Program-made: the position numbers and the translations under genes | Assembly: GCA_902798545.1 (NCBI GenBank) | Contig: CADBWQ010000011.1 | Coordinates: 62,001-126,000, forward strand | Source: Oscillospiraceae bacterium | GTDB taxonomy: Bacteria > Bacillota > Clostridia > Oscillospirales > Oscillospiraceae | Direction of reading: 5' to 3' | Length of the DNA: 64,000 nucleotides | Notes under the pieces: generated by a model | Told to the model about the DNA's origin: nothing | Database searches by the model: none | The model's input: the letters and a program-made list of their open reading frames with translations, nothing else | Part shown: piece after piece, positions 3,794 to 5,989 of the stretch | Numbering within the stretch: the stretch's first letter is position 1 | Layout of the letters: every line of letters begins with the position of its first letter

Positions 3794-3823
3794 TTGTAAT
3801 TCATAGTGGTGTTTTGATATAAT
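3794..3823 (+). promoter_or_regulatory. Promoter of the Trp-octad gene pair
   Basis: TTGTAA (3794-3799), 18-nt spacer, TATAAT (3818-3823), 73 nt before the chosen start at 3897. Confidence 0.7.
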
Positions 3824-3896: not shown

Positions 3897-4298
3897 ATGA
3901 GTGGACAGGACAATCTTCAGTTTGTATGGGATATCATGTTACAGAGTGAATGGTGGAAGCAGTATGGAGAGATGATCGAGAGGTCACAGGCGGACAAACC
4001 GGATCCGATGAGCAATGCAGGTTCTGACAATGCGGAAACATATATGTCGAGCGCATGGGTCGTGCCGGTCCCGAGTTCCTGGAGTGGGGCCGTACCATCT
4101 TCCTGGACTGGCCCTGTGCGGGAAGCCTTATTCGGATCATCCGCTGAGACCTGGTGGAACACTTCTTCCGAAACCTGGTGGATGGAGATTCCGGAAGCGT
4201 GGTGGAGCTCTTTCGGCGGAGTCTGGTGGAGCTCATTTCCCGGCTCCGAAGAGTTCGGAAGTGGATGCGGCCTTGGCTATGGCCTGCAACTGATCTGA
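3897..4298 (+). CDS. Tryptophan-octad repeat protein of unknown function
   Basis: Not recognised. The 133-residue reading frame contains 14 tryptophans (about 10%). From residue 54 the Trp residues keep an exact 8-residue register: AW, SSW, SSW, a gap of 16, then four WW pairs (ETWW, ETWW, EAWW, GVWW), each spaced by 8. The first ~50 residues are ordinary and charged, with one more WW in SEWWKQY; the end is Gly-rich (GSGCGLGYG). No signal peptide or membrane segment is evident. The ATG at 3897 follows a weak GAGG; the frame is open to 3834, but that stretch lacks a ribosome site. It ends 2 nt before the glycosyltransferase-like gene, so the two are probably coupled. The leader-plus-repeat layout could suit a peptide precursor or a repeat fold; both are speculation. 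Confidence 0.6.
   Translation: MSGQDNLQFVWDIMLQSEWWKQYGEMIERSQADKPDPMSNAGSDNAETYMSSAWVVPVPSSWSGAVPSSWTGPVREALFGSSAETWWNTSSETWWMEIPEAWWSSFGGVWWSSFPGSEEFGSGCGLGYGLQLI
4056..4247 (+). repeat. Eight tandem 24-nt units encoding Trp octads
   Basis: Seven of eight consecutive 24-nt units begin with TGG, and four begin with TGGTGG. The fourth begins TTATTC. Most units end in TCC, ACC or GCC. The units differ strongly at other positions, including synonymous serine codons, so the register looks kept by selection on the protein, not by recent duplication. Confidence 0.8.
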
Positions 4299-4300
4299 GT

Positions 4301-5179
4301 ATGGAAGCGTTTCATTCCTTCTGGTCCGCACCGAACAGGTGCAGGAACCAGGGTGAAATACTGTTTCCGGACTATGAGCAGCTCACTGCGATCCTGTCTG
4401 CGCTGGAATGGCGCAGACACAGCGGGAAAATCCGCATGATTACGGATCGTGCAGGGGCTGCTTGTTTCAGAGAAAAGAATATTACAGTTTTCTGGAATGA
4501 GACGGAAGAAGCCCTGGACAGCTTGGACGAAGTGGTCGATCCGTTTGCGTTCTGGGCGGCAGGAAAGCTTGCGGCGCTGAAAACAATGACGACTCCCTGT
4601 GTCATGCTGGATACGGATTTGATCCTCTGGGAGAGCGTTGAGCAGAAACTGACTGCCGACGTCGTGGCCGCCCATGCTGAGGCTTTGAATCCACGAACTT
4701 ATCCGGAACGGTCGGCCTTCCGAATGAAAAACGGATACCGGTTCCCTGAAAACTGGGATTTCAGAATTCGTCCGGCCAACACAGCCTTCCTGTACATTAA
4801 GAATGCCGGATTTCGTGATGCTTATGTCGATGCGGTATTTCAGTTCCTGGAGAATGTTGAGACAGATGGACTCACTCCTGTACAGACAATGTGTTTTGCC
4901 GAGCAAAGGATCCTGCCCATGTGCGCGGCAGCGGAAGGGCAGACAATGGCTTTCCTGATGGAGATGGAAGAAGTTTTCCGTCAGGATTATACAACACACA
5001 CCTGGGGGTTCAAGAACGTGCTGAGACAGAGCAGCAGAGCACGTGATGGCTTCTGTATTCGCTGTGTCACGAGGATCACAAGGGACTTCCCGGAAGAGGC
5101 AGAGATGCTGATGAACTGTCCGGATTTGAGGAATTATTATCTTCGTGTTCAGGACGCTGCAGCAGCGGGAGCGCGGTAA
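4301..5179 (+). CDS. Glycosyltransferase-like protein (resembles DUF6734)
   Basis: A 292-residue soluble protein that resembles uncharacterised glycosyltransferase-like proteins (DUF6734, assigned from memory). The supporting motif is PCVMLDTDLILWE near residue 100, a DxD-type metal/nucleotide-sugar segment preceded by hydrophobic residues, and a second region NTAFLYIKN that resembles the acceptor side of such folds. I chose the ATG at 4301 because it starts 2 nt after the stop of the octad gene and no ribosome site is visible, which suits reinitiation. The same frame is open back to 4154, but that part overlaps the repeat gene. A long hairpin follows the stop directly. The acceptor is unknown; the neighbouring Trp-rich protein is an obvious candidate. 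Confidence 0.6.
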   Translation: MEAFHSFWSAPNRCRNQGEILFPDYEQLTAILSALEWRRHSGKIRMITDRAGAACFREKNITVFWNETEEALDSLDEVVDPFAFWAAGKLAALKTMTTPCVMLDTDLILWESVEQKLTADVVAAHAEALNPRTYPERSAFRMKNGYRFPENWDFRIRPANTAFLYIKNAGFRDAYVDAVFQFLENVETDGLTPVQTMCFAEQRILPMCAAAEGQTMAFLMEMEEVFRQDYTTHTWGFKNVLRQSSRARDGFCIRCVTRITRDFPEEAEMLMNCPDLRNYYLRVQDAAAAGAR

Positions 5180-5228
5180 ACAAATACAACCGGAAATCGG
5201 CGTCTGCCGGTTTCCGGTTGTATTTGTT
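5179..5228. terminator. Long bidirectional terminator hairpin
   Basis: An 18-pair perfect stem (5179-5196 with 5211-5228) whose loop holds a further CGGC/GCCG pair. The outer stem is A-rich on the left and T-rich on the right. It lies between converging genes and begins on the stop codon of the glycosyltransferase-like gene. Confidence 0.85.
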
Positions 5229-5275: not shown

Positions 5276-5989
5276 TCAGCTCAATACGGAAACCCAGAGA
5301 ATGGGGAGAAAAATGGCGGGAAGCATATTGGCTACTTTGATACGCTCCCTGCTGCATTCAAGCAGGTTCAGTGCCATACCCAGGAGAATCACACCGCCGA
5401 CCGCGCTCATCTCGGTGACTGCGGCCTCCGAGAGCGCGGAGCCGAGAACACCCGCCAGCAACGTCAGAGCGCCCTGAAAAACAAAAACAAGCACAAAAGC
5501 AGCAGAGCAGGTGACACCAAAGCCCATTGCGGCGCCAAAAGCCATGCTGGAAACAAAATCCATCATACTCTTGGCATAGATGATGCTGTAATCATGCCGG
5601 ATCCCAGCCTCGAGAGAGCCCATGATGGTCATGGAACCGATACAGAACAGAATGCTCGCGGATACAAAACCGTCCGTAAAATTCTCCATGGAACGGCTCT
5701 CACTGCTTCCTTTTCCCTTGAGCAGCTTTGCCTTGATGGCATCACCGGCGTGCTCAATACCATCATCGATCTTCAGAAGCTCCCCGATTACGGTACCAAC
5801 GACCATGCAAAGAATGACACAGAGCAGATTCTGCGTTGCAATCGCACTGGATATCCCGATCAGTATTGTACAGAGACCCAGCGCTTTCATCACGGCGTTC
5901 CGCAGACTCTCCCTGAGACGGTTGCGAAAAAGGATTCCGATCAGGCTTCCCACAAGAACCGTCGCTGTGTTTACAAGGACTGCCGGCAT
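5276..5989 (-). CDS. DUF554 family membrane protein
   Basis: Integral membrane protein of 237 residues, typical for DUF554 (YdfK/YqgA type). Several hydrophobic segments are visible: residues 1-20, 38-75 (in two parts), 110-130, 145-190 and 215-237. The conserved opening region VNTATVLVGSLIGILF and the Gly-rich segment FGAAMGFGVTCSAAFVL match the family. Its molecular role is unknown. It is the last gene of a minus-strand operon with the YmdB, YhaO-like and YhaN-like genes: it starts 7 nt after the stop of the YhaN-like gene and ends before the terminator at 5179-5228. Confidence 0.85.
   Translation of the reverse strand: MPAVLVNTATVLVGSLIGILFRNRLRESLRNAVMKALGLCTILIGISSAIATQNLLCVILCMVVGTVIGELLKIDDGIEHAGDAIKAKLLKGKGSSESRSMENFTDGFVSASILFCIGSMTIMGSLEAGIRHDYSIIYAKSMMDFVSSMAFGAAMGFGVTCSAAFVLVFVFQGALTLLAGVLGSALSEAAVTEMSAVGGVILLGMALNLLECSRERIKVANMLPAIFLPILWVSVLS

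Follow-up and report, generated by a model that had tools for sequence, protein, structure and literature searches.

The locus described here raises the question of why a small protein with tryptophan at strikingly regular intervals should be encoded immediately ahead of a gene for a putative glycosyltransferase. The two genes lie in a 64,000-nucleotide stretch of DNA from an Oscillospiraceae bacterium (GenBank assembly GCA_902798545.1, contig CADBWQ010000011.1, positions 62,001 to 126,000 of the forward strand), which we call the window and whose numbering is used throughout. The first gene (3897 to 4298, forward strand) encodes 133 amino acids plus a stop codon, as judged from its translation and from matching upstream open reading frames (ORFs) at related loci. 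The second (4301 to 5179, same strand) encodes a 292-residue member of the family DUF6734 with the predicted GT-A fold of a glycosyltransferase. The initial annotation placed its emphasis on the tryptophan octad. We find that the conserved element, which that annotation missed, is instead a C-terminal tag, GYGLxLI, and that the spaced tryptophans are a variant of a serine-rich repeat peculiar to this species. A partnership between the tagged protein and the DUF6734 enzyme is close to certain, and O-glycosylation of serine by the enzyme is the best reading, to which we give roughly an even chance.

The partnership rests on how consistently the two genes travel together. A scan of a genome collection yielded four loci with enzymes 49–56% identical to that of the window, and a search of 60 genomes, including the window's own, added one further locus. 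Wider sampling detected an enzyme of this DUF6734 type in 46 of 394 genomes of the order and 20 of 391 of the class. In the phylum sample, 4 of 398 genomes gave a match; two of these had been found before, and of the other two one is weak (E = 5e-8) and one interrupted. No enzyme was found in the 36 other genomes of the same genus that were searched. These efforts give 63 different genomes, the window's included, with the four genome-collection loci counted separately. As the initial annotation had proposed to check, the same pair is present in related genomes: a tagged, serine-rich repeat gene lies upstream of the enzyme gene in 57 of the 63 (54 among the 60 genomes viewed as long loci, plus three more) and at all four genome-collection loci. 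For 55 of these 57, the stop codon of the tagged gene overlaps the enzyme start or begins no more than 53 nucleotides before it. The other two, both from genus g137, have the tagged gene 0.7 and 1.4 kilobases (kb) from the enzyme gene and carry the tag GYGIHNI. Five g254 genomes have a methyltransferase-like gene adjoining the enzyme gene and a serine-rich tagged gene on another contig.

The tag itself is nearly invariant. Across 63 tagged proteins (54 from long loci, four from the genome collection and five unlinked), its columns hold G in 63, Y in 62, G in 63, L or I in 62, a mixture of E, H, N, D, Q and R, L or I in 61, and I or V in 63, and these residues are encoded by varied codons. The window's version, GYGLQLI (4275 to 4298 with the stop codon, forward strand), conforms to the family consensus GYG[LI]x[LI][IV], and the tag pattern matches nowhere else in its genome. 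Within the class sample, the pattern occurs in all 20 DUF6734 genomes versus 23 of the 371 others. The latter matches are near chance level; reversing the pattern as a control gives matches in 22 of 391 class-sample genomes, and one site read in each of 22 of the 23 enzyme-free genomes revealed no serine-rich tagged ORF. Second tag sites in genomes G790 and G774 were read and judged to be chance. We also asked whether the ribosome site of the enzyme gene could itself have produced the tag, and rejected this explanation because the tag persists where the stop codon begins 12–53 nucleotides ahead of the enzyme start or where the gene is on another contig.

The tryptophan pattern that first drew attention to the locus is real, and its description in the initial annotation holds. 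Tryptophans occupy residues 11, 19, 20, 54, 62, 70, 86, 87, 94, 95, 102, 103, 110 and 111, which include an exact eight-residue series (54-62-70-86-94-102-110, with slot 78 empty) whose last four members are WW pairs. The repeat core (residues 51–117; 4047 to 4247, forward strand) has 16 serines and no tyrosine. It contains eight tryptophan pairs at lag 8, a count equalled at any lag from 2 to 20 in none of 20,000 shuffles, and in two of 20,000 when WW pairs are held as units. The eight 24-nucleotide units are otherwise dissimilar (mean DNA identity 44%, range 25–67%), and serine is encoded by all six of its codons, in line with the synonymous serine differences first described. What did not find confirmation is the claim that the octad register itself is under selection, given that the nearest relatives with a full-length protein (L003, L004 and L005) lack an octad. 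The closest locus of all, L002, has its upstream gene truncated by a contig end and offers no comparison. The relatives' repeat frame was inspected for stops and frameshifts, and none was seen; the frame is open and the C-terminus the same. Other ORFs do exist within the core, yet relatives retain the tagged frame, and we rejected alternative readings. A repeat solenoid was likewise set aside, as the window protein gives only a sub-cut-off match to DUF3432; among 10 relatives scanned for repeat families, only L056 passes one, Pentapeptide_2.

Among relatives, both the aromatic residue and its spacing vary by lineage and serine is retained, so that tryptophan was rejected as a conserved feature. 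Serine-aromatic steps are most often spaced by 8 in the window, whereas the favoured value among relatives is 4 (most f13 and some f36 genera), 3 (L097), 6–7 (g118, for the most part), 5 (f26) or 2 (f76, as Ser-Gly). This variation is easier to reconcile with a flexible chain carrying many sites than with a single repeat fold. Because the tryptophan spacing is not kept, the new octad fold that had been suggested is unlikely. Of the alternative suggestion, a modified repeat peptide with tryptophan or serine as acceptor, the tryptophan part is unlikely for the same reason, and the serine part is likely. In 45 of 63 cores, the number of serine-aromatic steps ranks among the highest 5% of shuffled values, and mean serine content ranges from 8 to 29% by group (last 60 residues before the tag, unlinked g254 proteins not counted). 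In genus g108, columns with a serine or tyrosine majority agree at 92% on average, versus 62% for valine and 56% for leucine. Tagged proteins are about 60–330 residues long with N-terminal parts unlike one another, and some are nearly devoid of aromatics ahead of the tag. As a separate observation, a HEYEYEYE-like internal motif occurs near GSF/GSY repeats in three families, among them the majority of f26 members, several from f36 and two from f13 (L055–L058, L060–L062, L064, L066–L068, L070, L073, L091, L095, L097, L111, L128 and L130).

The enzyme begins 2 nucleotides after the stop codon of its partner, and its anticipated DxD-type motif and likeness to DUF6734 are both borne out. It matches Pfam PF20508 (DUF6734) at E = 2.4e-16 and 60.4 bits (gathering score 27), and all 24 members scanned match this family at E ≤ 1 (best 1.3e-16), with three single weak matches to unrelated families beyond it. 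The metal motif is D104-T-D106, and both aspartates are present in 63 of 63 aligned members. Invariant motifs follow in the order DxD, N-x-A, EQR and H-x-W-G-x-K, which resembles the motif order of GT8. The predicted model adopts a GT-A fold with glycogenin, at about 10% identity, as the nearest solved structures; within one Z unit of it come LgtC, a Porphyromonas glycosyltransferase and GlmU. A sequence search of the PDB gave no meaningful match. Neither the pair nor 10 relatives exceeded any NCBIfam cut-off; L101 gave a weak low-complexity match (23.4 bits, cut-off 250).

Starting from the computed partnership, tag, fold prediction, growth-type promoter and lack of membrane-like segments, we propose a cytosolic protein-glycosylation module in which the DUF6734 enzyme modifies its serine-rich tagged partner, a proposal about as apt to be right as wrong. 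The enzyme, if its modelled fold is a guide, would be a metal-dependent nucleotide-sugar glycosyltransferase with the small upstream protein as its single dedicated substrate. We infer that the tag docks this substrate onto the enzyme and that the flexible serine-rich core acts as a multi-site acceptor, with sugars placed on serine (and threonine). The lineage-specific aromatic beside the serines, tryptophan here and tyrosine or phenylalanine elsewhere, might position the acceptor sites or serve as a sticky spacer. The end product would be an intracellular, multiply glycosylated scaffold produced during growth.

Several observations weigh against this proposal. No Pfam glycosyltransferase family, GT8 included, was matched by the 24 members in the Pfam-A scan (E ≤ 1). 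TM-scores to the solved structures are only about 0.4, and the enzyme model was built from a 5-sequence alignment. A read-through fusion model of the pair, aimed at tag docking, reached an uninformative predicted local distance difference test score (pLDDT) of 41.9. Eighteen of the 63 cores show no enrichment of serine-aromatic steps, among them that of the window (4 versus 3.0 expected), all six from f76 and four of five from g254. Leucine agreement in four g13 proteins (96%) is as good as that of serine (93%), as is phenylalanine (74%) relative to serine (71%) in seven f26 proteins, and the tagged protein of L089 is short with only 8% serine. Finally, genome G107 carries the enzyme gene directly behind a TTGACA/TATAAT of its own, and a search of that genome revealed no tagged gene.

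The genomic setting bears on where and when the pair might act. The shared promoter and long terminator described initially are both present: a sigma-70-type promoter (TTGTAA-18-TATAAT; 3794 to 3823, forward strand) and, at 5179 to 5228 on the same strand, a stem-loop that is a probable terminator (23-bp stem, 4-nucleotide loop, −38.1 kcal/mol, z −11.35), located between converging genes, the next ORF (5276 to 5989) being on the reverse strand. A promoter of the same type (sigma-A, or growth-type) precedes 39 of 50 tagged genes (shuffle mean 3.1, maximum 8); the four genome-collection loci and L137 are not among these 50 regions, nor are eight f26 genes that lack an assigned start. No hydrophobic 19-mer was found in 62 tagged proteins, whose starts were assigned automatically and to which no signal-peptide program was applied. 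Across 64 loci and about 6 kb around each pair, only the two genes themselves are widely shared; ABC (ATP-binding cassette) ATPase-like ORFs at 5 loci and histidine-kinase-like ORFs at 7 are scattered.

Glycogenin being the nearest solved fold, one might suppose a two-part bacterial glycogenin, in which the enzyme starts a glucose chain on a scaffold that is a protein in its own right, tagged and of low complexity, and that would prime the GlgA-made, glycogen- or starch-like storage polysaccharide and seed intracellular granules. Growth-type promoters agree with this idea, as does the presence of GlgA above its curated cut-off in 63 of 63 enzyme genomes versus 59 of 80 others (p = 1.5e-6, kinship not corrected), the 80 having been selected for completeness from the 371 enzyme-free class genomes. 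However, GlgA is common regardless, GT-A folds are mutually alike, the window core has no tyrosine, and no glycogen gene recurs beside the pair (64 loci, 17 of them viewed by eye). We consider it unlikely. Such a scaffold could condense through its aromatic and serine repeats by analogy with FUS-type proteins, which are known to do so. According to two reviews, bacterial glycogen synthase is self-priming and bacteria have no known homologue of glycogenin (PMC8116748, PMC11046441). The conserved tag offers another idea, in which its tyrosine is the sole acceptor and the serine-rich core merely a linker. Tyrosine is found in 62 of 63 tags and is the residue used by glycogenin; however, the tag of L078 reads GFGLELI next to an open enzyme gene, and the long serine repeats would go unexplained. 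This version we regard as improbable.

Two further proposals were weighed. A small, precursor-like gene adjoining one modifying enzyme, with a variable core and fixed C-terminus, is reminiscent of a ribosomally synthesised and post-translationally modified peptide such as a glycocin, whose core would be excised and exported. Neither a transporter nor a protease gene is a recurrent neighbour at the 64 loci (unlinked exporters were not sought), and tagged proteins of up to about 300 residues with dissimilar N-terminal parts fit poorly, making this explanation doubtful at best. A spore-surface glycoprotein with its glycosyltransferase, comparable to the BclA type, seems the hardest to sustain. 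SpoIVA is present in 62 of 63 enzyme genomes versus 64 of the same 80 others (p = 5e-4, kinship not corrected), and there is weak excess over shuffles for three patterns among the 50 upstream regions: sigma-K-like (2 versus 0.55), sigma-K −10 alone (4 versus 2.2) and sigma-F/G-like (8 versus 5.7). Against this stand the sigma-E and sigma-G patterns, each with no match, and the predominance of sigma-A-type promoters, although all the sporulation patterns are Bacillus consensuses. The exception for SpoIVA is the window genome, where neither it nor SpoVAA was found in an assembly that is 92% complete. Since the SpoIVA and GlgA contrasts ignore kinship, neither decides a role.

Serine O-glycosylation in the cytosol, which we favour, also has partial parallels among known systems. 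Serine-rich repeat adhesins are O-glycosylated on their repeats in the cytosol by dedicated Gtf enzymes, as we propose here. Adhesins, in contrast, have a signal for secretion and an anchor in the membrane or wall, whereas no membrane-like segment was found in 62 tagged proteins; the latter are about 60–330 residues long, end in a tag and have a single partner enzyme, which is of a different family. The arrangement of a small substrate gene adjoining one dedicated enzyme gene is shared with glycocins (for example sublancin and SunS); their core is cysteine-based, whereas that of the tagged proteins is rich in serine. Nucleoporins with phenylalanine-glycine repeats modified by O-linked N-acetylglucosamine and FUS-type low-complexity proteins share aromatics spaced by serine and glycine, together with the O-glycosylation that we propose here, but the present system is bacterial, tagged, served by a single dedicated enzyme and includes members almost free of aromatics before the tag. 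Glycogenin belongs to GT8, of which the scanned DUF6734 members match no Pfam family, and it glucosylates a tyrosine of its own chain, whereas the candidate acceptor here is a separate protein.

The enzyme tree joins the window to L002 as sisters (support 100/93) in a clade where family f1 stands together with Lachnospiraceae and Eubacterium loci, whereas the remaining clades mostly track host family; transfer into the window species is likely. One scan of viral contigs for phage spread gave no match. Outside the window's class, the DUF6734 gene of genome G1169 (L161 and L163) appears as a pair of matches separated by about 1.1 kb; a transposase ORF, presumably IS30-like, lies in the stretch, and no tag was seen in the stretches read. 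Some lineages have neighbours of their own. In family f13 (L059, L072, L075–L078 and others), a divergent gene (YGMGDGADKIL...), perhaps for an FkbM-type methyltransferase, lies at about −1.7 kb (16 ORFs, four genera). A radical S-adenosylmethionine gene resembling anaerobic sulfatase maturases is upstream of the pair at one Lachnospiraceae locus (L005, 1520 to 2752), and the same two genes, presumably GH3-like and C45 acyltransferase-like, precede it at both Eubacterium loci (L003 and L004, the latter from Eubacterium oxidoreducens DSM 3217).

Literature searches with DUF6734 and with the repeat and tag strings returned nothing on the pair, and this two-gene unit of a tagged serine-rich repeat protein and a probable sugar-attaching enzyme is undescribed. 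At least this branch of DUF6734 thereby gains a probable substrate, recognizable by a searchable seven-residue tag. The findings point to an undescribed intracellular protein-glycosylation system in several families of the window's class, Clostridia. If the sugar proves to be glucose, the question of how bacterial storage polysaccharides are initiated would be reopened.
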